A stretch of 64,000 nucleotides of DNA from Bacteroidota bacterium (GTDB lineage: Bacteria; Bacteroidota; Ignavibacteria; UBA10030; UBA6906), in NCBI GenBank assembly GCA_030835135.1, contig JAUQWO010000046.1:186001-250000 (forward strand), given 5' to 3'. The notes beneath the pieces were generated by a model. That model had not been told where the DNA came from, did no database searches, and worked only from the letters and a program-made list of their open reading frames with translations. Positions 44,266 to 62,289 of the stretch are shown in pieces (within the stretch, counting starts at the first letter, position 1; every line of letters starts with the position of its first letter). Both the position numbers and the translations under genes were made by a program.

Positions 44266-45421
44266 GGCTCACCTTCGCATAGTGCAGGATGGCGCCAGCC
44301 ACACGGTCCAGGTCCGCATCGGTCATCCCCGAACCCGAAGGCAGACACAACCCCTTCGCGAAGATTTCCGCGCACACCGCACCGCCAATGCACTCGCGGT
44401 CCGCGAACACCGGCTGCAGATGCATGGGTTTCCACACCGGGCGCGTCTCGATGTTCTCCTTCTCGAGCTCCAGCCGCAACTCTTCATTCGTAAAGCCCGC
44501 TCTCGAATGTTCGATGGTGATGCAGGTGAGCCACCGGTTGGACCGTCCGTACGGTGCCTCGGGCATGAACGTGATCCCCTCGATCGATCCCAGCGCCTTT
44601 TCATAGAACGCACTGATCGCCCGCCGCTTGTCGACCTTAGCTTCCAGGTGCTCCAGCTGCGCGCGTCCGACCGCGGCAAGCAGGTTGCTGAGACGGTAGT
44701 TGTACCCGATGGCCGTATGCTGATAGTACGGGAACGGGTCGCGCGCCTGCGTTGCCAGGTACCGCGCACGGGCAACATATGCTTCGTTCTTCGAGACCAG
44801 CATGCCGCCGCCGCTGGTCGTGATGACCTTGTTCCCGTTGAAGGAGAAGACCCCCATGGCCCCGAACGACCCGAGCGGCGTGCCCTTGTACGTGGCACCG
44901 AGCGCTTCAGCGGCATCCTCGATCACCGGGATGCCATACCGCGCACATGCCGCGAGGATCGGATCGTAGTCCGCCGACTGCCCGTACAGATCGACGACGA
45001 TCACCGCCCTGGGCAACTTCCCCGCCTTCGCCCTGGCCTCCAGTGCTTCGGCCAGCAATGCGGGATCCATATTCCATGTCGCCCGGTCGCAGTCGATGAG
45101 AACCGGCGCGGCACCGCAGTATGTAATCGCGTTCACTGATGCAGCGAAGGTGAGATCTGAACAGAACACTTCGTCTCCGGGGGCGACGCCCAGATTCAAC
45201 AGGGCAAGATGGAGGCCTGCCGTGCCACTGGCGAGCGCAACCGCAGCCGGTAGGTGGAAGCGCGAGCATACGTCTTGCTCAAATGCCTCAACGTGGGGGC
45301 CAAGCGTGGTGATCCAGTTGGAATCGAATGCATTGAGCAGCATCTCCTTCTCTCTGCCATCCAGATGAGGGGGTGAGAGATAGATGCGCTTCTGCGAAGG
45401 TTCAGCCGGCGTGGTAGACAT
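44258..45421 (-). CDS. DegT/DnrJ/EryC1 aminotransferase, PglE/EpsN-like
   Basis: PLP-dependent sugar aminotransferase, 387 aa. The start of the mature fold (RIYLSPPHLDGREKEMLL, DSNWITTLGPHVEAFE) is characteristic of the group that aminates UDP-4-keto-6-deoxy-GlcNAc. SGTAGLHLAL, EDAAEALGATYKG and the PLP lysine in FSFNGNKVITTSGGG are intact. It would use the product of the PglF-like dehydratase at 33618. It might alternatively supply the 3-amino group in the Wbp pathway (WbpE role). Start ATG 45421 has AAGGATC just before it. Confidence 0.92.
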   Translation of the reverse strand: MSTTPAEPSQKRIYLSPPHLDGREKEMLLNAFDSNWITTLGPHVEAFEQDVCSRFHLPAAVALASGTAGLHLALLNLGVAPGDEVFCSDLTFAASVNAITYCGAAPVLIDCDRATWNMDPALLAEALEARAKAGKLPRAVIVVDLYGQSADYDPILAACARYGIPVIEDAAEALGATYKGTPLGSFGAMGVFSFNGNKVITTSGGGMLVSKNEAYVARARYLATQARDPFPYYQHTAIGYNYRLSNLLAAVGRAQLEHLEAKVDKRRAISAFYEKALGSIEGITFMPEAPYGRSNRWLTCITIEHSRAGFTNEELRLELEKENIETRPVWKPMHLQPVFADRECIGGAVCAEIFAKGLCLPSGSGMTDADLDRVAGAILHYAKVSRG

Positions 45422-45508
45422 GATCCTTGAACGGTAGTGAACAGCGACAGCGTGAACAGATGGTCTGCCCCGGAGCATCCGGAGGAGTGGATTGGCCGGT
45501 CGGCCCCG

Positions 45509-46126
45509 CTAGGATCCGGGGCCCATGAATTCCGGTGAAGAGAAGTGGCCTTCCTGGCCTATGCCATCACGGCGAATGACCTTCCAGAGGGTTTTCATCA
45601 GGATGGACAGATCGAGCATGAACGACAGATGATCGACGTACCACACATCCATGGACAGCTTCAGGTCCCAGGCGATGTCGTTCCGGCCATTCACCTGCGC
45701 CCACCCGGTGATCCCCGGCTTCACATCATGCCTGCGGTTCTGCTCCTTCGAATACCGGGGCAGATACCGCATGAGGAGCGGCCGGGGCCCCACGAGACTC
45801 ATGTCACCAAGGAGGACGTTGAACAGCTCGGGGAGTTCATCCACACTCAGGCTCCGCACGATCTGCCCCACCCTCGTCGCCCGATCCTCATCGGGCAGCA
45901 ATTCTCCGCCGGCGTCCCGTGCGTCGGTCATGGTGCGGAACTTATAGATGATGAACGGCCGGCCCAGATACCCCGGCCGCTCCTGACGGAAAATGACCCG
46001 CGGCCCGAGCGATACCCGCAACACCACCCAGAGCACCAGAAAGAACGGCGTCAACACGACGAGTGCGATCAGCGCAATGACGCGGTCCAGCACACCCTTG
46101 ATGCATGTCCGGTACAGGTTCTTCAT
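45509..46126 (-). CDS. Initiating phosphoglycosyl transferase (PglC/EpsL/WcaJ-C type)
   Basis: 205 aa, a monotopic membrane enzyme that moves a sugar phosphate from a UDP-sugar to undecaprenyl phosphate to begin glycan assembly. It has an N-terminal membrane hairpin (VIALIALVVLTPFFLVLWVVL), FRQERPGYLGRPFIIYKFRTM, the catalytic Asp-Glu pair in LSVDELPELFNVLLGDMSLV and GPRPLLM. Short length without the long N-terminal membrane domain fits PglC. Start ATG 46126; the frame is open upstream but has no similarity. With PglF- and PglE-like genes in the locus, a bacillosamine-like first sugar is likely. Confidence 0.93.
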   Translation of the reverse strand: MKNLYRTCIKGVLDRVIALIALVVLTPFFLVLWVVLRVSLGPRVIFRQERPGYLGRPFIIYKFRTMTDARDAGGELLPDEDRATRVGQIVRSLSVDELPELFNVLLGDMSLVGPRPLLMRYLPRYSKEQNRRHDVKPGITGWAQVNGRNDIAWDLKLSMDVWYVDHLSFMLDLSILMKTLWKVIRRDGIGQEGHFSSPEFMGPGS

Positions 46127-46139
46127 GGCAGCGCGGGCC

Positions 46140-47237
46140 TCACTCTCCCTTCCTGGCGGCATTCGCTCTGTAGGCGGGGAAGAAGTGCTCGTCCGGCACT
46201 TCCAACCCCTGTGCAAGAAGACGCTGCCTGCGTGCAAAGACCAGAGCCTGATACAGCGCCGGCTGCAGTATGTTCTTCCACACGAGAAAATCGTGACGGC
46301 GGTCCGAGAACCCGCTCTTGAACGCGAACAACCCATCCTCTTTCGATCCCACCCCACCGCCAAGGTGGAGGTAATGCGCCCCGGCAGCCGTTGCCCACCG
46401 CCGCGCTTCATCTACCACCAGCTTCGAGCCGGCGTGCTGCAGCCCCACCGCGGTGCTCCCGGCAAGATGGAACTGCACGATCGTGCCGGTGCGGATGAAC
46501 AACCCGGCGGAACACGGCTCGCCCTCACATGTGGCAATGAACAATTGCAGATGCGAACCCAGCGACGCCCGCAGCTCTTCGAAGTACTCCCGACTGAAGA
46601 AGTACCGCGCGTCCGCACCTACACGCGTCATGGTCTCATAGTACAATGCGATGAACGTTGCATAGTGGGCAAGCGTCGCGTCATGGAAGACCTCGCACCC
46701 CTGCCGCACCGCGCTCCGGATCCCCTCGCGGTGACCCTTCCTGTACGCCAGCACCTGGACCCCTTCCGGCTCCGTGAGATCGATCGAGACCGTCTGCCCC
46801 ATCTTTTCCAGCATCCCTACGGAGCCGATCCGCGCGGCATTGCCCAGGACCGGACTCATGCGGGAGAACATGCACACGACGTGCATTCCGCGGGCGGCGT
46901 CTTCCACCGCCTTCTGAAACCGGTCGATGAACCCCTCACGCTCCACCGCCCGGGCATTCCACACCGGACCGGGATAGCCGTATACCGAGGTCATGTCGCG
47001 GTGCCCCGCGCCGGCGGTTGCCAATCCATCGATCGCCGCGATCTCGCGAACAATGAACGGCCAGGCCGCCACCGCATCCCCTTCCTGATAGGCGAACAGC
47101 ATACCGCTCCCCTTCTCCTGCGGCTCCGACAGGACGTGATACTCGGGCAGGTGGTAGAAGTCGTACTCCCCGCACCGCTTCACGATGCGCATCCACGCTC
47201 CGGGCTCGTTCGCCGGTATGATGTCCAGATGCGTCAC
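46140..47237 (-). CDS. FemAB-like transferase 1 (GNAT fold)
   Basis: About 365 aa with the double-GNAT FemAB/PEP-CTERM-associated architecture. DMTSVYGYPGPVWNA in the first half and YLHLGGGVGSKEDGLFAFKS in the second are family marks. FemAB proteins transfer amino acids from aminoacyl-tRNA or acyl groups to amines on glycans or peptides. It is a close paralogue of 48098-49219. The start is uncertain: GTG 47237 has AGAGGTGA directly upstream, and GTG 47273 is an alternative. It lies downstream of a GNAT gene. Confidence 0.83.
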   Translation of the reverse strand: MTHLDIIPANEPGAWMRIVKRCGEYDFYHLPEYHVLSEPQEKGSGMLFAYQEGDAVAAWPFIVREIAAIDGLATAGAGHRDMTSVYGYPGPVWNARAVEREGFIDRFQKAVEDAARGMHVVCMFSRMSPVLGNAARIGSVGMLEKMGQTVSIDLTEPEGVQVLAYRKGHREGIRSAVRQGCEVFHDATLAHYATFIALYYETMTRVGADARYFFSREYFEELRASLGSHLQLFIATCEGEPCSAGLFIRTGTIVQFHLAGSTAVGLQHAGSKLVVDEARRWATAAGAHYLHLGGGVGSKEDGLFAFKSGFSDRRHDFLVWKNILQPALYQALVFARRQRLLAQGLEVPDEHFFPAYRANAARKGE

Positions 47238-47293
47238 GTCACCTCTGTCCTGGATGATCTCCTGATGTGTCACGCTGAGCGATCTCCCGCGTG

Positions 47294-48046
47294 TCAGAAC
47301 GCGACCGTCGCGGGAACGGGTCCCCGGTGCCCCGGGAGGCTTGCCGCGAATTGCGCGAACGACCGCAGATCGGTACACGACGACACCGGCAGCACTTCCC
47401 GTACCGGCACCCCGAACCGCCTGCGCTCCACCCTGATCCGCCGGGGCACAAACCCCATGCGGGCAAAACTCATGAACGAATTCGTGTTGGTCACGGGTAT
47501 CGAGGTATGGATGCGTGTCACTCCCGCAGCCCGCGCGATCTCTACGAGTGACTCAACCGCTGAAGACAACACCCCGGTGCCCCTGTACTTCGGGAACACA
47601 TATGCGTTCTCCATCAACGCCTCATCCGCCGCGAGCGATGGATACCAGTCGCCGTAGATGCGCCGCACTGCCCCGTTCTGGTCGGGCAGGATGAGCCATT
47701 GCACCACCCGCACGATGCCGCCGGCATCCGCGATCGCATAACAGGTGCGTACGCCCGTCGCAAGCATGGTCAGCCGCCGCGAGGCCTCGTGACGCTCATG
47801 CGATGGCATCGAACGGTCCGCAAGCACCGCGGATAGCGTCGGCTCTTCCGGTCCCGCCACCGGATGCGCAACGAGCGGTACCCGGAACCGGCCGGGCCCG
47901 GCAAAGGTCCCGACATCCAGCACCGCATCCACATACACATGCGTGCTGAACCCCTTCTGCCGGATCTGCGCCACGAGCTCCTTCCAGAGCCCATGCGTGA
48001 GCATCAGCCGGAATGACTTCGTCGCATGTTCGATACCGTGCAGCAT
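47294..48046 (-). CDS. GNAT-family N-acetyltransferase
   Basis: About 250 aa. The C-terminal half has the acetyl-CoA-binding pattern (ENAYVFPKYRGTGVLSSAVE, ARAAGVTRIHTSIPVTNTNS, FMSFARMGFVPRR). The N-terminal half is a separate alpha/beta region with no family I can name. It probably acylates an amino-sugar or a related substrate. Start ATG 48046 is chosen after AAAGGTTGCGGG; ATG 48064 and 48088 are in frame. It sits between two FemAB paralogues, with small gaps on both sides. Confidence 0.78.
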   Translation of the reverse strand: MLHGIEHATKSFRLMLTHGLWKELVAQIRQKGFSTHVYVDAVLDVGTFAGPGRFRVPLVAHPVAGPEEPTLSAVLADRSMPSHERHEASRRLTMLATGVRTCYAIADAGGIVRVVQWLILPDQNGAVRRIYGDWYPSLAADEALMENAYVFPKYRGTGVLSSAVESLVEIARAAGVTRIHTSIPVTNTNSFMSFARMGFVPRRIRVERRRFGVPVREVLPVSSCTDLRSFAQFAASLPGHRGPVPATVAF

Positions 48047-48097: not shown

Positions 48098-49219
48098 TCA
48101 CGAGTCCGCGGTTAAATTCCCGGCGAAGGCATCGCTTCTGTAGAGAGGGAAGAACGATGGATCGCCCATGTGCTGTCCATGCTCCGCACAGTGCGCCGTC
48201 CGCGCAGCCGTCAGCCGGTCATACACATCCGGAAGTAGAATGCTCTTCCAGATGTAGAACTCATGCCGCACGTGGGAGAAGCCGGCCTTGAAATGAAAGA
48301 GACTGTCCTTCTGCACCCCGCGCCCGCCACCCAGATGCAACCAGTGCGCGCCGATGCCGGTCCCCCACTTCCGGGCCTCATCGATCACCATCTTGCTGAG
48401 GGAGTGATGCAACCCTTCCTCCGTGCTGCCGCCGAGATGGTAATGGATCATCCCGCCGTTGGACAGGAACATTGCTGCCGAGGATATCTCCTCCCCCTTA
48501 CCGGCAACGAACAGAAGCACCTTCGGCCCGAGATCCTCGACGAGCATCCTGAAGTACTCGTGCGCGAAGAAATACTGCTGCGACGCGTGTGCCCGTTCCA
48601 TGGTGCTGTGATACAGACGGATGAATTCCCCGACGTGGTCCAACCGTTCATCCAGGCGCGCACGGTAGCCAAGCGCATGGGCGCGGTGGATGCCGGCGCG
48701 GTGGTTCATGCGGTAGTGCGCGGCCTGCTCCAACGGCTCCCCGGAGAGATCGATGGAGATCGTCTGGCCCTTATGCTGCAGCGGCGCGCCGGTCCCCTCC
48801 CACGGTGCCACCCCGAAGATCGGATGCATCCGGGAGAACATGCTCACCACGCGCATCTCCTTCAACGCATCTTCCATCACGCTGCGGAATCGCACGAAGA
48901 ATCCCTGTTGCGCCTCCGCGGCGGCGTTCCAGACCGGACCCGGATAGCCGTACACGGACGTGGCGTCCCGATACCCATCACCGGCCACCCCGAGCCCCTC
49001 CACCGTAGCGATCTGCCGGATGAGCAGCGGCCATGCCGCCACGGCGGCGGCTTCGCGGTACACGAAGAGCAAGGCATCCCCATCGCCGTGCGCCTCCGAA
49101 AGCCGGTGGTACTCCGGCATGTGGTACACATCCCACTGCCCGCACTCCCCGAGGACGTTCGTCCATCGGGACGCCTGTGCAAGCGGAATGAACTCCGACT
49201 CCCCCTGTGTGGTCACCAT
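48098..49219 (-). CDS. FemAB-like transferase 2 (GNAT fold)
   Basis: 373 aa, paralogous to 46140-47237: DATSVYGYPGPVWNA and WLHLGGGRGVQKDSLFHFKA match motifs there in the same order, and CGQWDVYHMPEYHRLSE matches CGEYDFYHLPEYHVLSE. Double GNAT fold, cytoplasmic. The two paralogues with the GNAT gene between them form a FemAB-GNAT-FemAB trio, probably acylating or aminoacylating more than one position of the repeat unit. It starts 13 bp after the stop of a glycosyltransferase gene. Confidence 0.85.
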   Translation of the reverse strand: MVTTQGESEFIPLAQASRWTNVLGECGQWDVYHMPEYHRLSEAHGDGDALLFVYREAAAVAAWPLLIRQIATVEGLGVAGDGYRDATSVYGYPGPVWNAAAEAQQGFFVRFRSVMEDALKEMRVVSMFSRMHPIFGVAPWEGTGAPLQHKGQTISIDLSGEPLEQAAHYRMNHRAGIHRAHALGYRARLDERLDHVGEFIRLYHSTMERAHASQQYFFAHEYFRMLVEDLGPKVLLFVAGKGEEISSAAMFLSNGGMIHYHLGGSTEEGLHHSLSKMVIDEARKWGTGIGAHWLHLGGGRGVQKDSLFHFKAGFSHVRHEFYIWKSILLPDVYDRLTAARTAHCAEHGQHMGDPSFFPLYRSDAFAGNLTADS

Positions 49220-49232: not shown

Positions 49233-50474
49233 TCAGGATTTCTTCAGGAACGCAAGGTACTGCTCCGCAAGGATGCGGTAATCGTTGTGCGTGCGCACGA
49301 ACTCCGCGCCACGCTGCCCCATGGCATGCAGCGCCCCGGGCGTGACCAGCATCAACTGCCGCACCGCATGCGCGAGGGATGGCGGGTCCTCCGGCGGCAC
49401 AGTGATCCCGCAATCCGCCTGCGCCACCATGTCATTGCTCGCTTCCACCGCATGAATGATCGGCTTCGCAGCAAGCATGTAGTCCATCAATTTGTTCGGA
49501 CTCACGCCATACCGGTACAGCGGCTTCTTCCGCCAGACGATCAGCGCAACATCCACACCGGCAAGGAACCCCTGCACGCATTTCTTGGGGATCGGCGGGA
49601 GAAAATGCATGTTCGTCAAACCGAGATCGGCAGCGCGTTTCTTCAGGCGCTCCTTCTCGCCCCCCTGCCCGATCAGGACGAACGCCGCACTCGTATCGCG
49701 CAGGATCTGTGCGGCATCCACAACCACATCAAGACCGTTAGCGATACCGTGCGATCCGGCATACCCCACAAGGAACCGACCTTCGTTCCGGAGGCGCGAC
49801 AGCACGTTCCCGACCTCCTCCGGAAGCTCCGCGTGCTCCTGTGGCTCGAGATCGACGCCCTGCGGAACGCACATCCACCGCTCGGGCCGGAGCCCGCGCT
49901 CCTGCATGTACTCCAGCGAGTTGGGCAGCGTCGTCACAACCCGGTCCGCCGTGCGGTAGGCGATGTTCTCCACCGCCTTGAACAGCAACACGAGGGGATT
50001 GCGCGGCCCGTACCCGCCCAGATCGGTCAGCGTCAGGGGCCACAGGTCGCGCACCTCGCGCACGGCGATCCCTCCGGACAAGCGGGCGATCCGCCGCACC
50101 GGCAGGAAATCCAACGCATGCGTGGAGCCGGAGATGACGATGTCGGGCCGAAGCTCCTTCGCGATCCGTCTCCCGTGTTGCCAGAGCCGGACCATGAATG
50201 CCGCCATATTGATCATCCGCCCGATCCCGTTCCCGGCATACCGCGGCGTCTTCAGGATCTCGTACCGGATACCGTTCTCCGTCTCCACCCGGTGACTCCC
50301 CTGCATCTCCGGCACACTGAGAAAGAGATGGGAATACGATGCGACCACGATCGTGACCGTATGCCCCTGCTTCACCCATTCATGGGCAAGGTAGATGGGC
50401 CTGGACCTCGGGCAGTACTTCTCCGGCCCCATGTACTGATAGGCCATGACGATATGCAACGGTGTGCGGGTCAT
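49233..50474 (-). CDS. Glycosyltransferase family 4 protein
   Basis: 413 aa GT-B enzyme. The N-terminal domain carries YMGPEKYCPRSRPIYLAHEW, typical of WbuB/WbnE-like GT4 enzymes. The C-terminal domain has FLVGYAGSHGIANGLDVVVD and LIGQGGEKERL, then GVSPNKLMDYMLAAKPIIHA with the EX7E-like nucleotide-sugar site. Such enzymes commonly add the second sugar after a PglC-type transferase (PglA-like). Start ATG 50474; the frame is open upstream over the T9SS gene end. It follows that gene by 17 bp. Confidence 0.92.
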   Translation of the reverse strand: MTRTPLHIVMAYQYMGPEKYCPRSRPIYLAHEWVKQGHTVTIVVASYSHLFLSVPEMQGSHRVETENGIRYEILKTPRYAGNGIGRMINMAAFMVRLWQHGRRIAKELRPDIVISGSTHALDFLPVRRIARLSGGIAVREVRDLWPLTLTDLGGYGPRNPLVLLFKAVENIAYRTADRVVTTLPNSLEYMQERGLRPERWMCVPQGVDLEPQEHAELPEEVGNVLSRLRNEGRFLVGYAGSHGIANGLDVVVDAAQILRDTSAAFVLIGQGGEKERLKKRAADLGLTNMHFLPPIPKKCVQGFLAGVDVALIVWRKKPLYRYGVSPNKLMDYMLAAKPIIHAVEASNDMVAQADCGITVPPEDPPSLAHAVRQLMLVTPGALHAMGQRGAEFVRTHNDYRILAEQYLAFLKKS

Positions 50475-50491: not shown

Positions 50492-52258
50492 CTATCGCAC
50501 CAGCCGCAATTCCTGCACCGCGGAGGCGTTCCCGCAACGGATCCTGCAGAAGTATGCGCCGGTGGGAAATGATGCCGCGTTCCAAACCAGTGTATGGGGC
50601 CCCGCCTCTTCGTAGGCAGACCGCAGCGACGCGACGTGTGCGCCGAGCACGTTCACGATCTCCACCACGACATGTGTGGACGCGGTGAGTACGTACGAGA
50701 TGGTGGTGCTGGTGCGGAACGGATTCGGATAGATGCGGAAGTTTTCGATCTCCGGTTGCCGCGTCATGGAAGTGTCGTCCGGGGCCCCCGAGGTCCGGAA
50801 TGCCCACGGTCCCGCATACGCGCTTGTTCCCCCCGCATTGAGTGCACGCACCCGCCAGAAGTGCCGCTGCTGGGGGGCAAGCCTGGGAAGATGCACGGTC
50901 GTGTCGGCCAAGGTAGAGTCATCGAAGCTCATCGCTGAACCGAACAGCGAATCGCCGGTCACCTGTACGTGATAGGTGCTCGCCCCGAAAGAGCCAAACC
51001 ACATGAGTTCGGGTGTGAGCGGCACATCGATGGCGCCATCGAGCGGCGAGCGGAGCTGCGGCGCCGCGGGTGGATCGGGTGTGAACGTCAGATAATACTG
51101 CAGGTCGCCGTCGCGGCGGTCGGGCTGTCCCCACTGGTCCCACCCCTGCCACGTGCCGCCGGTGGTGAACTGCGCATAGCCATCGATGAACAACGCCGAC
51201 TTGAAATCGATCGACGACCCGCTTCCCTTCCTGATCGGATACAGGTCGTACGTACTGGATGCTGCACAACGGAACTCCAGCATGTATTTCTGTCCGCCGC
51301 CCAGGAGCTTGTTGCCCACCGGGATCGTCACCCAGGAATACGCCGTGCCCACCTTCGATGCTGCCAGCGCACCCCGTGCCACCGTGGCCCCTGCCATGGT
51401 CTGGATCTCGGCGATCAGTGAATCCGTTCCCGACAGCCGGCGCACACGCACCGACACCTGAGCCACGGGCTGATCGGCCGCGGTCATGGTGAAGACCTGT
51501 CGCACCGCACTCGTGCCGGAGACCGTCCTGGGATTCTCGCTCCACACCTCCATGTACCCGACCCCGTCGCTGAATCCATCCATATAGTTCAGCTCCAGGA
51601 TGGGTGTGTAGCTGTCCGATTGCCCCGTACTGATGTTCGTCCAGGAACCCGGATTGGTCCGCGACCCGAGGAGCTGGAACCAGTCGGGGTCGGCAAGGGT
51701 CGGCTGACACGGGATAAGCCCCTTGCGCATCCACAGGCTGTTCACGGAGACATAGTTGCTCACGGGGTCGGCATCGGGATTGGTGATCACCACATGATAG
51801 ATGGAACCCTTGCGCAACTGCACGGGCGATGGGAAGGTGAGGAGCGGGAAGCTCCCTTTGTTCATCGGATCGGTGTGCGTGTACGAGGCGAGCGTCTCCC
51901 CCGAGGGACGATGCCGCGACGTGCCGTCATCAGGCTGTATCCTCACGAGCAGCGAACCGCCCGTCCCGCCATTGTACCCCGATGAGCTGCTGGACCAGAT
52001 CACGTAGAGCCGCACCGACGCGAGGAGTCCCGAGTGCGTCGCACGGAACCCGAACGACGTCGTGGTCTGAAACGGCCCGCCGATACGCGTGTTGGACAGC
52101 GCATCCGCGCTCAGCCCGGACCCCAGGTATTGCGGGGTGGCGATGAGCAACCGGACACGTGTCGCCGCGATGCCGGGGAGAGGGGCTTCACTCCCGTTGA
52201 AGGCGAAGAGGAAGACCGCAAAGGCAGTCCATTGCCAGAGCATCTGCGGCACATGCAT
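50492..52258 (-). CDS. T9SS cargo protein 1, tandem paralogue
   Basis: About 588 aa. A signal peptide (LWQWTAFAVFLFAF) is followed by a large beta-rich region beginning GLSADALSNTRIGGP, a FN3-like domain (SPLDGAIDVPLTPELMWFGS) and a C-terminal type A T9SS sorting domain: FRIYPNPFRTSTTISYVL, VVVEIVNVLGAHVASL, GAYFCRIRCGN. It should be exported through T9SS and anchored or released at the surface. Its paralogue lies immediately upstream. Starts at ATG 52258 or 52285; neither has a good ribosome site. It lies between two glycosyltransferase genes, which is unusual for a cargo protein. Confidence 0.85.
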   Translation of the reverse strand: MHVPQMLWQWTAFAVFLFAFNGSEAPLPGIAATRVRLLIATPQYLGSGLSADALSNTRIGGPFQTTTSFGFRATHSGLLASVRLYVIWSSSSSGYNGGTGGSLLVRIQPDDGTSRHRPSGETLASYTHTDPMNKGSFPLLTFPSPVQLRKGSIYHVVITNPDADPVSNYVSVNSLWMRKGLIPCQPTLADPDWFQLLGSRTNPGSWTNISTGQSDSYTPILELNYMDGFSDGVGYMEVWSENPRTVSGTSAVRQVFTMTAADQPVAQVSVRVRRLSGTDSLIAEIQTMAGATVARGALAASKVGTAYSWVTIPVGNKLLGGGQKYMLEFRCAASSTYDLYPIRKGSGSSIDFKSALFIDGYAQFTTGGTWQGWDQWGQPDRRDGDLQYYLTFTPDPPAAPQLRSPLDGAIDVPLTPELMWFGSFGASTYHVQVTGDSLFGSAMSFDDSTLADTTVHLPRLAPQQRHFWRVRALNAGGTSAYAGPWAFRTSGAPDDTSMTRQPEIENFRIYPNPFRTSTTISYVLTASTHVVVEIVNVLGAHVASLRSAYEEAGPHTLVWNAASFPTGAYFCRIRCGNASAVQELRLVR

Positions 52259-52366
52259 CCTTGAGGTTCGCTTGTGTTTGCGCATACAGCGAAGGAGTGA
52301 TGCGATCCGGGCGGATCCCCGGTAGAAGCGGCCGGGGACCCGTGGGGTCAATGAAGAGATACGGCT

Positions 52367-54109
52367 TTATCGGACAAGATTCAAACCAGAGGTCACATGC
52401 GCGGCGCCAGCGCGCAGCACGCAAAAATATCTGCCGGCGGCCTTTCCCCGTGCATCCCACTGCACACGGTAGGAACCCGCGGACTGCCGGGCGTCCACGA
52501 GCCGCGCCACCATCGAGCCGAGCACGTCATACACCTCGATCGACACATCCGCTGCCACGTCCAGATGATACTGGATCGTGGTGCTGGGGTTGAACGGGTT
52601 GGGGTAGTTCACCACGCTCAATGGCCCCCCGTCTCCCGGCACCATTTCCACGCTCTCGGACTTCGGCACCGCAACATAGAACGAGACCACGGTAGAATAC
52701 TCGCTGGAACCGCTGCCGCCATTGGCACGCACGCGGAAGTAATACGTAGCACCCAACACCGGCGGGGCAAACTGCGCCGATGTATCCGTCACGCTGGTGT
52801 CCATCGCCGTTGCGGCGAACAATGAATCGCGGCTCACCTGCAAACGGTACGACGTGGCGCCGGACGACGGGTGCCAGGTCAGACGAACGGACGGCGAGGA
52901 GGTCACGCTTCCCGCACCAGGTTCATCGGGATCGGGCACACCCGGCACTTCATCCGCCGTTGCAAAGACGAATTGCAGATCGGCGTCCAGGCGGTTGGTG
53001 CCACCCCACTGGTCCCAACCCGTCCACGTCCCGTTCGTCGTGAACTGCGCATACCCATCGGCGAAGTACGACGACGCCGAGAACTGCACGTTCGATGAGC
53101 TCCCCTCGCGGAGCGGGAATGTTTCGTACGTGGTCCCCGCGGGGGACTGCAGCGTCAGGTTGTAGCGGCCCCCCTTCGTCAGCGTGCGCAGCGCGGAGAA
53201 CGTGTACGTCACCCACACATACTCCGTCCCAATGCCGGCAATGGTGCCGCTCTCGACCAGGGTGCCGTTGTTGCGCTCCAGCCGCACGGTGAGGGGCGCC
53301 GTGCCAGAGACCCGCCGCACGCGGAGAGCAACGCTCGTCACACGCCGGTCGGCCCCGCTCACCGTGAACGTCTCCCGCACCGAGGAGGAGCCAACGATCT
53401 GTTTCGTGCTCTCCGTCCACACTTCCATATAGCCGTTGCCCGTGCTATACCCATCCGCGTAGTGCAATTCCAGGATCGGCGTGTAGCTGTCCGAACCGCC
53501 GTTCTCGACAGGCCTCCACGAATCTGCCTGCGTGCTGAACGCAAGGAGCTGAAACCAGTCCTCGTCCGCGAACGCCGGTTGCCGCGGCGTGTCGCCATTG
53601 CGCTTCCAGAGACTGTTCACCGACACGAAGTTCGTCACCGGGTCCGGGTCCGGGTTGGTGATCACGATATGATAGAGCTCACCCGCCATCAATTGCGGTG
53701 GAGTGGCGAACGTCAGGACCGGAAAGTTGCTCTTGCTCATCGGATCGGTGTGGAGATACGAAGCCAGCGTCTGTCCTGACGGGTGATGGTCCGTGGTGCC
53801 GTCGTCCGTCTGGATCCGGAACAGCAGCGACCCACCCGTGCCACCGTTGTACCCGGAATTGCTCGCGGACCAGATCACATACGGCTGTATCGCAGCGAGC
53901 GTCCCGGAGTGTGTCGCACGGAACCCGTACGACGCGATGAAGCTCCACGGCCCGCCGATCCTGGTATTGGACAGCGCATCGGCACTGAGTCCAGGTCCGT
54001 ACGTACCACCCATGGCGTTCTGACGAACGCAAGCCAGCATTACACACATCGTCCACAGCAGCGCATGCTGAAACGCGCGCGGCCGCCGGTCACTTCTGAT
54101 GATCTCCAC
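52367..54109 (-). CDS. T9SS cargo protein 2, tandem paralogue
   Basis: About 580 aa, same layout as its neighbour: a signal sequence (FQHALLWTMCVMLACVRQ), GLSADALSNTRIGGP, SGYNGGTGGSLLFRIQ, GYAQFTTNGTWTGWDQWG (GYAQFTTGGTWQGWDQWG in the other copy), an FN3-like domain with PSVRLTWHPSSGATSYRLQ, and a sorting domain with VVNYPNPFNPSTTIQYHL and VYDVLGSMVARL. GTG 54109 is chosen because GAGGGGTGG lies just upstream; GTG 54136 is possible. Function unknown; the shared beta domain may bind or coat the glycan made by this operon (inference). Confidence 0.85.
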   Translation of the reverse strand: MEIIRSDRRPRAFQHALLWTMCVMLACVRQNAMGGTYGPGLSADALSNTRIGGPWSFIASYGFRATHSGTLAAIQPYVIWSASNSGYNGGTGGSLLFRIQTDDGTTDHHPSGQTLASYLHTDPMSKSNFPVLTFATPPQLMAGELYHIVITNPDPDPVTNFVSVNSLWKRNGDTPRQPAFADEDWFQLLAFSTQADSWRPVENGGSDSYTPILELHYADGYSTGNGYMEVWTESTKQIVGSSSVRETFTVSGADRRVTSVALRVRRVSGTAPLTVRLERNNGTLVESGTIAGIGTEYVWVTYTFSALRTLTKGGRYNLTLQSPAGTTYETFPLREGSSSNVQFSASSYFADGYAQFTTNGTWTGWDQWGGTNRLDADLQFVFATADEVPGVPDPDEPGAGSVTSSPSVRLTWHPSSGATSYRLQVSRDSLFAATAMDTSVTDTSAQFAPPVLGATYYFRVRANGGSGSSEYSTVVSFYVAVPKSESVEMVPGDGGPLSVVNYPNPFNPSTTIQYHLDVAADVSIEVYDVLGSMVARLVDARQSAGSYRVQWDARGKAAGRYFCVLRAGAAHVTSGLNLVR

Positions 54110-54229: not shown

Positions 54230-55426
54230 CTATGCTGTTCGGACACCCTTCACACTTTTTTTCAAGATCGCGCTGTACACTCCTTCAAGTTTCCGTAACT
54301 CGTTGTCCCAGTTGAAATGCTTCGCCACTGCCGCGCGGCCGTTCTCGCCGAGCCTGCGCGCCAGCGTGGGGTCATCGATCAACCGTCGCACGGCCGTCGC
54401 CACTTCCTGCGGAGAGCGCGGGTCGATGCAGTAACCGCACTGGAGGTCCTCCACGATCGTCTTATACAACGGAAAATTTGAGGCCAGGATGGGCATGCCG
54501 AGGCACATATATTCGAAGATCTTCGTCGGGTACGAGCCCATGTAGTTCGGGATCGGGGCAAGGAGCGCCGTTCCCAGCGTACATCCTGCCATGATCTCCC
54601 ACCCCTGATGCGCCTCCATGTAACCTCGTACGTTCACATCCTGGAGCCCGTATGTACGGACACGGTCCCCGATCTCGCGGCGGTGATCTTCCTGGATCGG
54701 CCCGATGAGTTCCATGCCGACCTGGTACCCCTGTGTCTTCAACAGGTGCAGCGCCTCAATGAGCACCAGCGTGCCGCGCAAGGGGGAGACCGCACCGAAG
54801 TACCCGATCGCCGGCTCCGCCCTCCGCGTTACCTTCACCGCCCGGAGTTCATCCAGCAGCGGCATATTCAACACCACGGCGCTCTTCCGCGAACGCGAGT
54901 AGTGCCGCACGTACGAATCCTCCGCAAAGACGATCGGCATGCCGATAAGCAGCAGCCACTCGAGCACCACCACCGAAACGGAGATCGGTCGGCGGACGAG
55001 GCGCGGGAGCCATGCTTTGTCCAGGATGGCGCCGGGGAGGTTCTCGTGCATATCGAAGACCACCTTCTTCCCCAACAGCCGCAGCAACTGTCCCCAGGGC
55101 AACAGTTCGGGATCATGAAGATGGTACAGGTCGGCGCGGAGCGACAGCGCCGCGGTGAACGCATGCCAGCAACCCAGCGACATGCGCATCAGCCGGTTCC
55201 GGTATTTGGGCATGGGCACCAGCGTCACGCCGGACCTGGTTCCGGCCTCGGCATCCGGCGCAACGAGGAAGACCTCATAGCCGTTCTTCGCCAGCGATCT
55301 GCATTCCTTCTGGAAGATGCGGATATCGTCCGGTGTATGGACGGCCGTGATGTGCACGATCCGTGGCCGTTTGCCCGGCGGACTGGCGCCTGCCGCCAAC
55401 GCGGTGTGTGTATTCTCAGAAGCCAT
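54230..55426 (-). CDS. Glycosyltransferase family 4 protein
   Basis: 398 aa GT-B fold. The N-terminal domain has VHITAVHTPDDIRIFQKECR and LYHLHDPELLPWG, the C-terminal domain AIGYFGAVSPLRGTLVLIEA and SYPTKIFEYMCLGMPILAS, with the conserved Lys/Glu nucleotide-sugar site in KIFEYM. It is probably a retaining transferase adding a sugar to the lipid-linked repeat on the cytoplasmic side. It follows the ChbG-like deacetylase gene by 23 bp and precedes the T9SS pair by about 120 bp. Confidence 0.92.
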   Translation of the reverse strand: MASENTHTALAAGASPPGKRPRIVHITAVHTPDDIRIFQKECRSLAKNGYEVFLVAPDAEAGTRSGVTLVPMPKYRNRLMRMSLGCWHAFTAALSLRADLYHLHDPELLPWGQLLRLLGKKVVFDMHENLPGAILDKAWLPRLVRRPISVSVVVLEWLLLIGMPIVFAEDSYVRHYSRSRKSAVVLNMPLLDELRAVKVTRRAEPAIGYFGAVSPLRGTLVLIEALHLLKTQGYQVGMELIGPIQEDHRREIGDRVRTYGLQDVNVRGYMEAHQGWEIMAGCTLGTALLAPIPNYMGSYPTKIFEYMCLGMPILASNFPLYKTIVEDLQCGYCIDPRSPQEVATAVRRLIDDPTLARRLGENGRAAVAKHFNWDNELRKLEGVYSAILKKSVKGVRTA

Positions 55427-55449: not shown

Positions 55450-56208
55450 TTATGATAGTGGAGTGAAGGCAAAATCATGTGCCAGGCGTTCCAGCATGGA
55501 CCGTGTGTGGTACCCATTGATCGCATCGATGAGTTCGCCCGTTTCCGAGTACCCCGGGTGGATCATGATCTCGTACGTTCCCGGCGTATGCGCCTCCGCG
55601 GGGGACAACGCCAGGAACGCGGAGAGATCCCCGAAGTGATCGGTGACCGCAAAACCTTTCCACGACAGGTACTTCGTGAAGCCAAGCTTGTATGCGCCCC
55701 GGAGCGGGTCCACGCGGTGCAGGTTCGCGGACGTGCGCACCCGCCGTACGTTGAACCCCTTGAGGGCCGGCTCCAGCAACCGGAACAAGGCAAGGTTCGT
55801 GTGCACATGCCTGTGGGAATCGGCGTGAGTGGCGGCGAGGCCGTGTTGCCGGCAGCGGGCGATCTGCGCTTTCGCTTCTCTGGCGACACACTCCCTATCA
55901 ACGGATGAGAACAGCACCCCCTTCCGCTGGTAGGAGAACCGGCCGTCCGCGTCACAGAAGCGCCGGTTGCGTTTGATACCGTTGGTGAGCGGCACCCCTT
56001 CCGACAGGTTCAGGTGGACCCCCACGCGATGGGCAAACTTGTGCTGCTGTGCCAGTTCACACGCCTCGTCGAATCCCGGCATGTTGGCCATCGCGGTCGT
56101 GTTCGTCGCAAGTCCGGACGCCATGCATTCTACGATCGCCCGGTTCACAGTGTCCGAGCGGCCGAAGTCATCCGCGTTCACGCTCATCTGCTGGACGGAG
56201 CTCTTCAA
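55450..56208 (-). CDS. ChbG/YdjC-like carbohydrate deacetylase
   Basis: About 252 aa. SVNADDFGRSDTVN near the start, VGVHLNLSEGVPL and THADSHRHVHT give the aspartate and histidine metal ligands of YdjC/ChbG enzymes, which remove N-acetyl groups from amino-sugars. TTG 56208 is the proposed start: GGGGG lies seven bases upstream, and it overlaps the FemAB stop as TTGA. ATG 56187 would leave only three residues before NADDFG, short for the first strand. The tight coupling to a FemAB gene suggests deacetylation followed by new N-acylation. Confidence 0.88.
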   Translation of the reverse strand: MKSSVQQMSVNADDFGRSDTVNRAIVECMASGLATNTTAMANMPGFDEACELAQQHKFAHRVGVHLNLSEGVPLTNGIKRNRRFCDADGRFSYQRKGVLFSSVDRECVAREAKAQIARCRQHGLAATHADSHRHVHTNLALFRLLEPALKGFNVRRVRTSANLHRVDPLRGAYKLGFTKYLSWKGFAVTDHFGDLSAFLALSPAEAHTPGTYEIMIHPGYSETGELIDAINGYHTRSMLERLAHDFAFTPLS

Positions 56209-56963
56209 TAGTTCGCCCCCATCATAGCAAGCACCTTGCACGCAACGGTGCCGGCAAGCGACAGCGGCACCGTATACGAGTACACCGGAGCAACACTTCC
56301 ACCGAACGCCATCTTGAACTGCGCGATCTTCTTCGTCTCCTCGGTCTTGCCGGTAGCATCCAGTCCGCCCATATCGTACACCGTGAGGCCAAGATCCCGG
56401 AATGCCACCATATCGTTCCAGTGCAGAAACCTGTTTGCGCGCATGATCGCTTTGCTCCGGGGGTCGTCCTTCAGTTGGCGGAAGTGCGACGCGGAGTACA
56501 GCAGCACTGCCCGTTCCGGCGTGCGGAGATAGGCATGCCATGCGAGCATGATCCCATCGTTGAACGCGATGTTCGTGATCGCCAGCCGTTGCTTTTCGGT
56601 GAGGAGGAACAGCCGCTGGCGGAAGATCTTCTCCAGCCCTTTCGTTGCCGCAAAGTCATCGTAGTAGTCGCAGAACGCACCGATCACCGCCGGCGTGCAC
56701 GTCACATCGCACGTGCACGTCATCTCATCCTTCATTGCCTTCTTCACCATCTGCCGGGTGGTCTCGTTCATGCCGGCAAAGAGCGCCTCTTCGGATTGCT
56801 TCAGGTCGATCACCAGACAATGGCCGGGGCGTTCGCGCCCCTGAAGCGAGGCCACGGGGGTGGAGGTCGTCATGCGGTGGATATCCGCCTTCACCGGACC
56901 ATCCATCGCCGGTTCGTAATACGACTCCGCCACGCGGAGGCCGTTCCGCCGGAAGGTGATCAT
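56205..56963 (-). CDS. FemAB-like transferase 3 (short form)
   Basis: 252 aa, shorter than the usual 340-400 of the family. RPGHCLVIDLKQSEEALFA, NETTRQMVKKAMKDE and the C-terminal LTVYDMGGLDATG, TEETKKIAQFKMAFGGS follow the FemAB/GNAT pattern; the first GNAT half is reduced. It begins just after the O-antigen ligase stop and overlaps the deacetylase start, so the three are translationally linked. Confidence 0.8.
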   Translation of the reverse strand: MITFRRNGLRVAESYYEPAMDGPVKADIHRMTTSTPVASLQGRERPGHCLVIDLKQSEEALFAGMNETTRQMVKKAMKDEMTCTCDVTCTPAVIGAFCDYYDDFAATKGLEKIFRQRLFLLTEKQRLAITNIAFNDGIMLAWHAYLRTPERAVLLYSASHFRQLKDDPRSKAIMRANRFLHWNDMVAFRDLGLTVYDMGGLDATGKTEETKKIAQFKMAFGGSVAPVYSYTVPLSLAGTVACKVLAMMGANY

Positions 56964-56964
56964 G

Positions 56965-58248
56965 TTATGCTCCCGCCGCTTCCCTGGTCACCGCGGCTGC
57001 CTTCACGCTGCCTGCTGCCGGGGCCGTCGCCGGCGCCGCCAACGGTGTCGCCACCGGCGTCTTGCGCAGCGTGCTCAGGTCATGAACCCCCACCATCGAA
57101 GCGAGCGCAAGCAGGGTATAGAGGAGGCGGTTGTCGTTGAAATCGCCGCTCACCTGGGCATTCACGAACATGAACACCGCGAGGAGGAAGACCCACTGGT
57201 CGTTCACGCTCCGAGACGCCCGGGCTTGTTTGCCGGCCCTCCTGAAAATGACATAGAGCGCGAGGAGGACCAGAGCACCGGACACCCATCCACCTTCCAG
57301 GAAGATCTCCACGATGAGGTTGTGGGGATAGGTGATGCCCATCTCCTGCGCCATCTCCGCAAACCCGCCCCATCCGATGCCGAGGGGGGTGACGGCCCCC
57401 TTCTTCACCGAGATCTTGAGGGCACGGATACGGGTCGCGGCCGAGGCATTCTCCCTGGTATCCTCGAAGGGGTCGTTCCTGATCGACTCCTCCATGCGGC
57501 TCCTGGATCCTTCGGGGGCGATCTCCGAGCCGATGAGCAGTGCCAGCGCGAACAGTCCAACGGTCAGGAGCATCACGAGCCACTGTTGCACCGTCCGGGC
57601 ATTGAACATCAGAAAGAACAGGATGAGCGTCACCCCGATGGCGATGAGCGGACCGCGGGAGCCGGAGGCGAAGATGACGGGCACCAGGACCAGCAGCGCA
57701 GCTGCCTTTATCAGAAGCCGGAGCCACCGTCTCTTCCCCTGCGTAACGAGGAAACCGATGAGGGCGATACCGCTGGCGCGGCCCAGAGCGATCGTATTGG
57801 AGCCCATTGCCTCCAGTCGCGCATCCTGTTTGAACGTCCCCATCTCGGTCCAGAGAGTAACCATGGCGTCGGCGACGATCATGAGAGCGATCAGCGTCAG
57901 CGCCCGCCGGAATATCCGCAGATCGTTGCGTTCCGTGATGAGCAGCAGCGGGGCAGCGCAGGCGAGGAGCGTGAGCGTGAACATACGGCTCGACTTCTCG
58001 ATCGCGTAGTCCGTCCATACCGTCCAGAGGAGCGGGATGGCGAACAGGGAGACCCCGATGATCAGCCACACGAGCTGCTTCTGGTACCGCACATCCATCC
58101 GCAGCACGCGCCAGATCGAGAAGAGGGTCAGCGCACCGGCCGCGGCCACCGTCAGGTCGAACGGTATCCATGCCAGCCGCTCATCGGCTTTGAACTCGCC
58201 CACCAGCAGATACACCGCCAGAAAGATCGCCGGCACACTGCACTCCAC
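56965..58248 (-). CDS. O-antigen ligase/polymerase (Wzy_C family)
   Basis: 427 aa with about ten to twelve membrane segments. ASGSRGPLIAIGVTLILFF and ITYPHNLIVEIFLEGGWVSG are the Wzy_C signature and its HN..E motif on the outer face. It either joins finished glycan to an acceptor (WaaL or PglL-like) or polymerises repeats (Wzy); these cannot be separated by eye. The C-terminus is an Ala/Pro-rich tail. The start is a GTG at 58248, 35 bp after the flippase gene. Confidence 0.9.
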   Translation of the reverse strand: MECSVPAIFLAVYLLVGEFKADERLAWIPFDLTVAAAGALTLFSIWRVLRMDVRYQKQLVWLIIGVSLFAIPLLWTVWTDYAIEKSSRMFTLTLLACAAPLLLITERNDLRIFRRALTLIALMIVADAMVTLWTEMGTFKQDARLEAMGSNTIALGRASGIALIGFLVTQGKRRWLRLLIKAAALLVLVPVIFASGSRGPLIAIGVTLILFFLMFNARTVQQWLVMLLTVGLFALALLIGSEIAPEGSRSRMEESIRNDPFEDTRENASAATRIRALKISVKKGAVTPLGIGWGGFAEMAQEMGITYPHNLIVEIFLEGGWVSGALVLLALYVIFRRAGKQARASRSVNDQWVFLLAVFMFVNAQVSGDFNDNRLLYTLLALASMVGVHDLSTLRKTPVATPLAAPATAPAAGSVKAAAVTREAAGA

Positions 58249-58283: not shown

Positions 58284-59645
58284 TCAGGAGCCGGACGGTG
58301 TGGCGTGCGGTCGTCCGCCACGCACCACCCACCACACCGTGATCATACTCATCAGATAGAACACCGACGACCCCGCGGCGAAGCACGCCACGCCCCAGAT
58401 CGGCTCCAGCGACAGATACTCCGCGAGCAACAAAGGCCCAAGTACCAACGGAGCGCGCAGCACCTCCCGCAGCAAGTGGAGCTCCTGCCGTTCGAACACC
58501 GTGAGCGCCGGATGCGTCGGGCTCGCCACCGCGGTGATGAAGTACATCGGCGCGAGGGGGATGAGGTACATCGCCGAATGCGACCATTGCGGGCCGAAGA
58601 TCACGGGAAAGAGCCAGTGCGCCGTGGCAAGCATGAACACCACGAACGGAAGGCTGAGCATCGCCATGCGTCCCACCAGTTGCCACAGCAGACCGCGCTG
58701 CCTGTGAAGATCGTCCTTCCCGATGCCGGCGGACCTGCTGAAGTACACATCCGCCGTTGCACTCGAGAGGAGGCTCAGTGGCCCCCCCACCACCAGCGAG
58801 CAGAGCGCCACCCATCCGGCGATCTCGGTGCCATAGATGCGGGCGATGAACAGCGGACCCAGCAGGCCGGAGCTGCTCAAGAGTCCTGACCCGGTGGAGA
58901 GGAGCGGGAACTTCCTGTACCGGACCGCCGCCTCAATCATTTTTGCCCATGACACATGCCTGAGCGGGGCTGAAGCATCCCGCGAGAGGATACGTGCGAG
59001 GGAGAAGCCGCCCGCGCTCCTGCCCACGATATCGCCGAAGATCAGGCCTGCCGGACCGAGGCGGGCGGCACCGAGTCCGAGCTGCACCACCACCTGTCCC
59101 ACCCCCTGACTCACCTTCGTGCGGGCCAGCACTGCGAACTGTTCCTTCCTGATCGCCCAGTAGCTCAGCACCTTGTAGGACGACAGAGCAAAGAGCGACA
59201 GTGGCAGGGCCCAGAGGTAGGAGCCGAGGGCCGGGAGGCGGAACCACGCACCGACCGCGTCTGCCATGAACAGCGCCGGCACACAGAGCAGCACGATCAC
59301 CAATATCAGGATACCGAGGCACAGAGCCACAAGGTTTGCCCCCTCACCGTCGTCCTTCGGCAGAGGGATCCCTTGTTCATAGGAAAGGCAGCTCACAGTA
59401 CCAAGCACTCCCAAGAGCGACCCGAATGACGCCTGCACACCGAAATCGTCTGGTGTATACAGCCGCGTGATCAGAGGCGCCGTCACCACCGCCAGAAGCT
59501 GTCCGGCCACCGTCCCGCCCGCAAGCAGGAACACATTGCGGGCGAATCCGCCCGGCACCAACACACGCTGGAGCGGCGGGAACCATTCGGCGGCGCGTGT
59601 CAGGGCTCCCGTCATCCAGCGTTTGGCCGCACTGGCCTCGCTCAT
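58284..59645 (-). CDS. wzx: Polysaccharide flippase (Wzx-like)
   Basis: 453 aa, about 12 membrane helices, polysaccharide biosynthesis (MATE/MVF-like) superfamily. GGTVAGQLLAVVTAPLITRLY, TPDDFGVQASFGSLLGVLG, and EQGIPLPKDDGEGANLVAL are typical. It moves the lipid-linked repeat across the inner membrane. ATG 59645 overlaps the WbpD stop as ATGA. Together with the Wzy_C gene this indicates Wzx/Wzy-type assembly. Confidence 0.93.
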   Translation of the reverse strand: MSEASAAKRWMTGALTRAAEWFPPLQRVLVPGGFARNVFLLAGGTVAGQLLAVVTAPLITRLYTPDDFGVQASFGSLLGVLGTVSCLSYEQGIPLPKDDGEGANLVALCLGILILVIVLLCVPALFMADAVGAWFRLPALGSYLWALPLSLFALSSYKVLSYWAIRKEQFAVLARTKVSQGVGQVVVQLGLGAARLGPAGLIFGDIVGRSAGGFSLARILSRDASAPLRHVSWAKMIEAAVRYRKFPLLSTGSGLLSSSGLLGPLFIARIYGTEIAGWVALCSLVVGGPLSLLSSATADVYFSRSAGIGKDDLHRQRGLLWQLVGRMAMLSLPFVVFMLATAHWLFPVIFGPQWSHSAMYLIPLAPMYFITAVASPTHPALTVFERQELHLLREVLRAPLVLGPLLLAEYLSLEPIWGVACFAAGSSVFYLMSMITVWWVVRGGRPHATPSGS

Positions 59646-60220
59646 GCCACTTCACGCACGAGGTTGTTCTCGAGTTTGTATCGTTTTTGTGCCTTCTCGC
59701 AGAACGCAAAGCCGTCCTTGTCGAACGACAGCTTGCGTCCCGCCTCGCTCATCCATCCGGCGATGCGTGCCGGGTTCCCCACCACCAGCGCGAAATCCGG
59801 GATATCCTTCGTCACCACCGCGCCGGCACCGATGAACGCAAAGCGGCCGATCGTATGTCCGCACACGATCGTCGAGTTCGCGCCCAGTGAGGCGCCTTCT
59901 TTCACGAGCGTCGGCTTGTAGAACTCCTTCCCCACCTGGGGGTACTTCGAGCGGGGGTCCGAGATGTTCGTGAATACCATCGACGGTCCGCAGAAGACAT
60001 AATCCTCCAGGACCACCCCCTCGTACACCGACACGTTGTTCTGGATCTTCACGAAATTCCCGATCGTCACGTTGTTCGCGACGTTCACATTCTGGCCGAG
60101 GATGCATTTCTGTCCGATCTTCGCACCCGACTGCACATGGGAGAAATGCCAGATCTTCGTCCCCTCGCCGATCTCGCAGGGCTCATCCACGTATGCCGAT
60201 TCATGCTTGAAGTATGCCAT
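59642..60220 (-). CDS. wbpD: WbpD-like UDP-2-acetamido-3-amino-glucuronate N-acetyltransferase
   Basis: 192 aa left-handed beta-helix enzyme with hexapeptide repeats (IGQKCILGQNVNVANNVTIG, GASLGANSTIVCGHTIG). HESAYVDEPCEIGEGTKIWH and FSHVQSGAKIG are the family N-terminus, and MVFTNISDPRSKYPQVGKE is characteristic of WbpD/WlbB. It acetylates the 3-amino group of UDP-GlcNAc(3NH2)A after WbpB and WbpE. wbpB lies 29 bp upstream. Confidence 0.93.
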   Translation of the reverse strand: MAYFKHESAYVDEPCEIGEGTKIWHFSHVQSGAKIGQKCILGQNVNVANNVTIGNFVKIQNNVSVYEGVVLEDYVFCGPSMVFTNISDPRSKYPQVGKEFYKPTLVKEGASLGANSTIVCGHTIGRFAFIGAGAVVTKDIPDFALVVGNPARIAGWMSEAGRKLSFDKDGFAFCEKAQKRYKLENNLVREVA

Positions 60221-60249: not shown

Positions 60250-61245
60250 TCATGGATGGGCGACCGCCATGTCGTCCTGGGTGAGGTAGGATGCCATGGA
60301 GCGGAGCAGCACCGGATGTGCCGATGCATTCGCCGGGGAGATCGCCGTCGAGCGGATGCGATGCACCAGTTCGATCGCACCACGCGCATCACCGATGCCG
60401 AACCCCTTCCCCTCCAGCGTCCGTTCGTACACACGTGTATGCAGGTCTGTGAATCCTTCCGTGAACTCGATCTCCTTCCCGCCCACCGTGATCGAGCGGA
60501 ACGTCGTCTTCGCACCCTCCACCGCCGAAGGCGGGAGATCCGCAGTATCCGCCGAGAGAAACCACCGCACATTCGCATTCTTCAGTTCGAGGTAGCCCGC
60601 CATCCGTTTCGGTTCCTTCAGGTGCACCAGGCAGCGGTCTGCCGGACCGAAAAGCCAGAGGAGGAGATCGAAGAAATGTACCCCGATGTTCGTGGCGATG
60701 CCGCCCGAGCGCTCCTCACTCCCCTTCCACGACACGTCGTACCAGTGTCCGCGGGATGTCACGTAGGTCAGCACCACCTCATGCTTGTGCGCAGCGCCTT
60801 CTGCCTGAAGCTTCTCCCGCAGTTCCATGAGGGCCGGGTGCACGCGGAGCTGGAGTATCGTATACACCTTCCGTTCCGTCTCCCGTTCGCACTCTTCCAG
60901 CGCATCCAGATTCCAGGGATTGATCACCAGCGGCTTCTCGCAAATTGCATCCGCGCCCACGCGGAGGGCAAGGCGGATATGCGCATCGTGAAGGTAATTC
61001 GGCGAGCAGATCGAGAGGTAGTGGAGGCGTTGTTCCACCGGCCCGCGGCGGAGCTTATCCAGGTATCGGTCGAATCGTTCAAATTCGGGGAAGTACCGCA
61101 CGCCGAACGAGAACGAATCCAGTATCCCCACCGAATCGTGCGGATCAAGAGCTGCCACAAGCTGGTTGCCCGTATCGCGGATCGCGCGGAGGTGGCGTGG
61201 GGCGATATACCCCGCCACGCCGGTGATAGCAAAATTCTTTCTCAT
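60250..61245 (-). CDS. wbpB: WbpB-like UDP-GlcNAcA 3-dehydrogenase
   Basis: 331 aa Gfo/Idh/MocA oxidoreductase. RKNFAITGVAGYIAPRHLRA gives the Rossmann start in the form found in WbpB/WlbA, LSICSPNYLHDAHIRLAL and ADAICEKPLVINPWNL hold the EKP motif, and GGIATNIGVHFFDLLLWLFG the sugar site. It oxidises C3 of UDP-GlcNAcA using NAD. Start ATG 61245; the frame is open 15 codons upstream. WbpD follows, and WbpA is three genes upstream. Confidence 0.94.
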   Translation of the reverse strand: MRKNFAITGVAGYIAPRHLRAIRDTGNQLVAALDPHDSVGILDSFSFGVRYFPEFERFDRYLDKLRRGPVEQRLHYLSICSPNYLHDAHIRLALRVGADAICEKPLVINPWNLDALEECERETERKVYTILQLRVHPALMELREKLQAEGAAHKHEVVLTYVTSRGHWYDVSWKGSEERSGGIATNIGVHFFDLLLWLFGPADRCLVHLKEPKRMAGYLELKNANVRWFLSADTADLPPSAVEGAKTTFRSITVGGKEIEFTEGFTDLHTRVYERTLEGKGFGIGDARGAIELVHRIRSTAISPANASAHPVLLRSMASYLTQDDMAVAHP

Positions 61246-61270
61246 TCGAATACTCTCAGATATGCTTTCC

Positions 61271-62275: not shown

Positions 62276-62289
62276 GGCAGAACATCCTG

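Follow-up and report, generated by a model that had tools for sequence, protein, structure and literature searches.

Paired cargo genes in a polysaccharide locus

The 64,000-nucleotide window analysed here (positions 186,001 to 250,000 of contig JAUQWO010000046.1, assembly GCA_030835135.1) belongs to a Bacteroidota bacterium of the order UBA10030, family UBA6906. It carries two adjoining genes, P0001 and P0002, whose products are cargo of the type IX secretion system (T9SS) and which lie among genes for polysaccharide assembly. The two genes and the parts of them discussed below are as follows.

50492..52285, minus strand: P0001, T9SS cargo paralogue 1 (reading frame open to 52351), made up of a signal-peptide-like N-terminus, a two-module block, an FN3-like stretch and a type A sorting domain
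51080..52123, minus strand: shared block in P0001 (residues 77-424)
52367..54109, minus strand: P0002, T9SS cargo paralogue 2, with the architecture of P0001 (reading frame open to 54136)
52955..53998, minus strand: shared block in P0002 (residues 47-394)
52955..53461, minus strand: module 2 of the block in P0002, with a confident jelly-roll core in the predicted structure

The probable start of P0002 is the GTG at 54109, which has GAGGGG just upstream and is where the original prediction had placed the right-hand end of the pair. The two proteins are 48% identical across 551 residues (E 1e-172) and 58% identical over their N-terminal 350 residues, which makes this paralogy and not chance, and the motifs quoted in the original prediction are found in both. 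Its description of the pair as tandem paralogues is borne out, as is their assignment to T9SS cargo, since both sorting domains score above the curated cut-offs of NCBIfam (TIGR04183, 32.0 bits in P0001 and 27.9 in P0002, cut-off 23) and Pfam (PF18962, 30.6 and 28.8 bits, cut-off 27). Both N-termini are basic and then hydrophobic, as judged by eye, and the genome encodes a PorU sortase (G000:C69, 965 bits, cut-off 420). The FN3-like domains also claimed for the pair are retained in part: such a stretch precedes the sorting domain in both proteins, at matching places, but the match in P0002 lies below the Pfam cut-off (22.6 bits against 25). In their signal-peptide-like start, modular beta-rich body and TIGR04183 C-terminus, with PorU in the genome, P0001 and P0002 resemble the PorU-anchored type A cargo of Bacteroidota. 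They differ from it by their site inside a putative polysaccharide biosynthesis operon and by their unnamed two-module block.

Searches of Pfam and NCBIfam found no known catalytic domain and no beta-helix in either protein, and NCBIfam gave no match to a PEP-CTERM signal. Membership of two families was rejected, both matched by P0001 alone and below cut-off: DUF4082 (PF13313, 14.5 bits, gathering cut-off 28.4) and the GTA head spike fibre domain (NF048003, 16.5 bits, E 0.009, cut-off 36). The sole PHROGs match was that of a major tail protein to the FN3 region of P0002.

As predicted, the pair sits between two glycosyltransferase genes of the same strand (49233-50474 and 54230-55426), both of which are of the GT4 type, and the junctions are short, with 120 bp between GT4a and P0002, 81 bp between P0002 and P0001, and 17 bp between P0001 and GT4b. 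No terminator-like site was found on the minus strand from 49.2 to 55.4 kb. Promoter-like sites are no commoner than in shuffled sequence, and the sole one on the minus strand, upstream at 56156 and inside another reading frame, is no better than those in the shuffles. Close packing, the lack of a terminator-like site and promoter-like sites at shuffle level make it plausible, judging from sequence, that the pair is co-transcribed with the glycan genes, whose GC content it shares (63.1%).

The neighbouring genes, from 44.3 to 64 kb, likewise all lie on the minus strand.

44258..45478, minus strand: DegT aminotransferase, nearer to perosamine-synthase-like enzymes than to WbpE
45509..46150, minus strand: initiating sugar-phosphate transferase (Bac_transf)
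46140..47378, minus strand: FemAB/GNAT-type acyltransferase 1
48098..49219, minus strand: FemAB/GNAT-type acyltransferase 2 (FemAB2), 47% identical to acyltransferase 1
49233..50474, minus strand: GT4b, GT4 glycosyltransferase, starting 17 bp past the P0001 stop
54230..55426, minus strand: GT4a, GT4 glycosyltransferase, ending 120 bp before P0002
55450..56172, minus strand: YdjC-like carbohydrate deacetylase
56205..56963, minus strand: FemAB-like protein 3
56965..58248, minus strand: Wzy/O-antigen-ligase-like membrane protein
58284..59645, minus strand: Wzx-type flippase, named by eye from its translation
59642..60220, minus strand: WbpD-type N-acetyltransferase (3mqg, E 3e-63)
60250..61290, minus strand: WbpB (3oa2, E 3e-109)
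61271..62326, minus strand: FemAB protein 4 (FemAB4), weak TIGR03019 match, an unproven VimA-like candidate
62290..63231, minus strand: CE4/DUF2334-like deacetylase candidate, an unproven VimE-like candidate
63245..64000, running past the window end, minus strand: WbpA-type UDP-sugar 6-dehydrogenase (family-level match)

Past the window end follow a NusG-like regulator and Wza-like and Wzc-like proteins, all named by eye; the Wzc of the locus lies at G000:C12:251786-254164. An Rfam search over 40-64 kb gave no match. The two adjacent FemAB acyltransferases (46140-47378 and 48098-49219) form a second tandem paralogous pair within the locus, and at 47% identity they have diverged about as far as the cargo pair. 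The wbpA, wbpB and wbpD genes (window 59642-64000, L047:11834-15091 and L051:10867-14041) share 58-80% identity from one family of the order to another, against only about 36% for the Wzc proteins linked to them; these three genes form a conserved core in otherwise variable loci.

The shared block and its relatives

The region common to both proteins, 350 residues long, consists of two beta-sandwich modules and is a rare one without a name. It has two copies in the whole genome, those in P0001 and P0002. A survey of 395 genomes from across the phylum found it in this genome only; among 98 of the order, it was found in two. The block matches no described family in Pfam, NCBIfam or PHROGs, and a search of the PDB with a profile of four block sequences gave no match at E values up to 10. 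An origin of modules 1 and 2 by internal duplication was considered and is unsupported (hhalign E 0.22).

The sole other bacterial block protein is a T9SS protein of 1240 residues from the metagenome-assembled genome Zod_Metabat.377 (L024/L026), in which a beta-helix stands in front of the block. Over 725 residues of its first part it shares 64% identity with a second T9SS protein encoded in that genome, a paralogue whose gene lies about 2 kb upstream of wzc; after wzc come wza, a nusG-like gene, wbpA, wbpB and wbpD. The third occurrence is in a 2132-residue protein (L029:2901-9299) encoded beside a terminase-like gene on the viral contig IMGVR_UViG_3300050821_000628; its block is 35% identical to that of the pair. 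This is a phage structural protein; the parts around its block look by eye like a pectate-lyase-type beta-helix, and Pfam reports Ig-type domains only. Other phage and plasmid searches returned no block match, the five plasmid matches being to the FN3/sorting domain only, and the remaining viral scans gave either that one contig again or no match.

When modelled alone, module 2 has a confident core (residues 18-117) with a predicted local distance difference test score (pLDDT) of about 70-92 and a jelly-roll fold. Structure comparison placed this core nearest to the central fibre of mycobacteriophage Douge (Z 11.0, 2.2 Å over 116 residues), followed by a phi812 baseplate protein (Z 9.8), a porphyran-binding carbohydrate-binding module (CBM; Z 8.8) and CBM6-type modules (Z 7.7-7.8); only the Douge fibre is clearly above the background that the tool describes. 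Foldseek searches with module 2 also returned CBM6 and phage fibres. The modelled fold favours a binding module, and it is the likeness of the core to the Douge central fibre that connects the pair to phage receptor-binding fibres. P0001 and P0002 differ from these in that they are no virion proteins here, and the resemblance of P0001 to the head spike fibre domain is weak.

Cargo genes upstream of wzc across the order

The strongest and more interesting result reaches beyond the pair itself. The surroundings of Wzc genes across the order were searched with a sorting-domain hidden Markov model built from the cargo of this genome. As a control, 40 stretches of the same genomes, 565 kb in all, contained 13 cargo genes, or one per 43 kb. 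Upstream sequence of 2.5 kb or more was available for 32 Wzc genes, and at 20 of these a cargo gene on the same strand ends no more than 2.5 kb upstream (0.9 expected; L025, L044, L047, L048, L051, L054, L055, L058, L059, L060, L064, L066, L070, L072, L073, L076, L079, L082, L084 and L085). The binomial probability is about 2e-23, or 5e-19 using the upper bound of the control density, and these values should not be read literally, because the 2.5-kb cut-off was picked once the data had been seen and because the genomes are related to one another. By family, the pattern holds at 14/18, 1/2, 2/7 and 3/5 Wzc loci, and this genome has it at both of its own. NCBIfam confirmed the sorting domain in 9 of 10 upstream proteins checked, the tenth reaching 22.5 bits against a cut-off of 23. 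In open full-text literature (titles and the beginnings of abstracts, with partial coverage) no description of a link between T9SS cargo and Wzc was found.

The upstream proteins have several unrelated architectures: some are giants (about 2,500-3,400 residues), and others are beta-helix proteins, proteins with DUF4874/DUF4832 or short proteins. Four giant T9SS proteins with Ig/TIG-like repeats (L066:6051-16304, L064:3055-11892, L055:4746-12113 and L079:444-8084) share 57-66% mutual identity over about 2,300-2,800 residues across genera of one family. Members of one T9SS-tailed family are encoded some 0.2 kb ahead of wzc in three genomes that belong to a single genus (L070:1598-3469, with DUF4874/DUF4832; L072:1988-3859; L073:15665-17569). 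At L025:8405-11008, two adjoining secreted-looking paralogues with a common GYYPEDVNMNGQVKYSGS-NDRS repeat are found among the T9SS cargo genes upstream of wzc.

Readings of the pair

The explanation we favour, to which we give roughly an even chance, is that P0001 and P0002 are surface-anchored T9SS proteins that bind or coat the polysaccharide and form part of a swappable cassette. They would be exported by the T9SS, probably with covalent anchoring at the surface by PorU, and would display tandem carbohydrate-binding-like beta-sandwich modules on an FN3-like spacer. Expressed together with the polysaccharide of their own strain-specific cassette, they would probably bind, coat or cross-link that particular glycan, serving as coat or matrix proteins in a layer of exopolysaccharide or O-antigen. 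This explanation draws support from the type A sorting domains and the PorU of the genome, from the tight packing, from the jelly-roll core of module 2, from the relatives of the block (only a beta-helix protein of the T9SS and a structural protein of a phage), from the kinship of the bacterial relative with a T9SS protein encoded upstream of wzc, and from the generality of the cargo-Wzc link in the order.

Several results weigh against it. The original prediction had suggested looking for conservation of the pair with its neighbouring glycan genes, and the outcome is negative: at the thresholds used, the block has no match in the other 20 genomes of the family, nor do GT4a, GT4b or FemAB2 have strong matches there. 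Polysaccharide loci are usually strain-specific, and the absence of strong matches to the flanking glycosyltransferases and FemAB2 marks this locus, which is of the Wzx/Wzy/Wzc type, as a strain-specific cassette. The sole bacterial homologue outside this genome lies beside a pyrophosphatase and metX/metY-like genes, with no glycan genes at its locus, yet it is a paralogue of the Wzc-linked T9SS protein described above. On the downstream, biosynthetic side of Wzc, 6 same-strand cargo genes (the pair included) were counted in 432 kb with 5.0 expected, so the position of the pair inside the biosynthetic part is no recurrent feature. As to structure, neither the block nor the pair has a sequence match to a known CBM family in Pfam, NCBIfam or the PDB, and a jelly-roll fold by itself is no demonstration of sugar binding, even when confidently modelled. 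Prediction of the shared domain, which the original prediction had also suggested, succeeded for the core of module 2 but not for the whole block, whose model is poor (mean pLDDT 56), includes no confident module 1 and supplied none of the fold matches used here.

The original proposal that the pair are co-transcribed and dedicated substrates, coats or binders of the glycan therefore survives in a weaker form. Tight packing, the absence of an internal terminator, equal GC content, a place in line with glycan genes and a binding-module-like fold speak for it, but since conservation with the glycan genes is not demonstrable and the placement is at chance level (6 against 5.0), dedication is something that we infer, and dedicated glycan binding is plausible.

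The main rival is chance. One of the many cargo genes of this genome may have landed in a recombining cassette and then been duplicated, with a function unrelated to the local glycan, such as adhesion or the binding of external glycans. There is ample material for such an event, with at least 150 matches to the sorting domain/FN3 region in the 4.9-Mb genome, and the control density of cargo genes, their chance-level frequency downstream of Wzc and the unrelated locus of the bacterial homologue all fit it. Tandem cargo genes are also ordinary in this genome, with a further array of four at G000:C63. Chance fits less well with the tight packing of the pair between two glycosyltransferase genes, 17 bp from the next start and with no terminator-like site, or with the kinship of the other block protein to a Wzc-linked T9SS protein. 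On balance, we regard chance placement as somewhat unlikely, though a serious contender.

A further explanation takes the locus to make the linking sugar to which PorU joins the cargo, and the cargo genes to move together with the pathway that anchors their products. In Porphyromonas gingivalis, the sugar to which T9SS cargo becomes linked is produced by WbpA, WbpB, WbpD and WbpE with VimA and VimE, and VimA matches the PEP-CTERM-associated FemAB family (PMC7468200). The gene order in the window fits well, with wbpA, the CE4-like candidate, FemAB4 (weak TIGR03019 match), wbpB and wbpD in a row, and PorU is present. WbpE is encoded elsewhere, by an unlinked gene at G000:C86 (E 2e-114 to WbpE); the DegT aminotransferase of the locus was considered for this role and fits poorly, being more like perosamine-type enzymes. 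Unlike the published pathway, however, this one is patchy: T9SS cargo abounds in the order, yet WbpB was found in only 8 of its 98 genomes, so the Wbp/Vim sugar is not the general anchor there. The VimE-like candidate has no Pfam match (its homologue has a weak one to DUF2334) and was found in the phylum sample in only three genomes, counting this one; like the VimA-like candidate, it is unproven. The Wbp sugar also occurs as an ordinary constituent of O-antigens, and the Wbp genes here more likely make a diacetamido-uronic acid of the polysaccharide. We therefore consider the linking-sugar explanation for the co-location improbable in this strain. Equally doubtful is a role for the pair as enzymes, or accessories of enzymes, acting at the cell surface to trim the polysaccharide or modify it, since neither protein has a beta-helix or known catalytic domain, although in the relative from the order the block does follow a right-handed beta-helix, the kind of fold often seen in polysaccharide lyases and hydrolases.

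Returning to surface proteins that bind or coat their own glycan, the order as a whole may couple the T9SS to Wzx/Wzy/Wzc export, a proposal that we make tentatively and hold to be possible at best. Polysaccharide loci would encode matrix proteins of their own for export by the T9SS, in most cases immediately upstream of wzc and in this window inside the biosynthetic operon, and would act as swappable protein-plus-glycan surface cassettes. T9SS cargo has been studied mostly as enzymes, adhesins and gliding proteins. If true, a reproducible link between cargo and polysaccharide export would define a class of exported matrix proteins, each paired with a particular glycan, and would provide a predictive rule for the functions of the numerous uncharacterised cargo proteins that these genomes encode. 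It would also help to explain how protein and glycan surface layers change jointly between strains.

By analogy, the link recalls the PEP-CTERM/EpsH (exosortase) system, in which C-terminally sorted surface proteins are tied to exopolysaccharide loci (PMC1569441), and the cassettes would be its T9SS counterpart. The two are alike in having surface proteins with sorting signals at polysaccharide loci and relatives of FemAB and of the acyl ligase nearby. They differ in that the signal here is the T9SS domain and the sortase PorU, and in that the cargo genes, not the sortase gene, stand at the polysaccharide loci. Beside the locus in the window, an acyl-CoA ligase is encoded at 38963-40519, and of the NCBIfam models it matches the exosortase-A-associated ligase TIGR03098 best (386 bits against a cut-off of 592).

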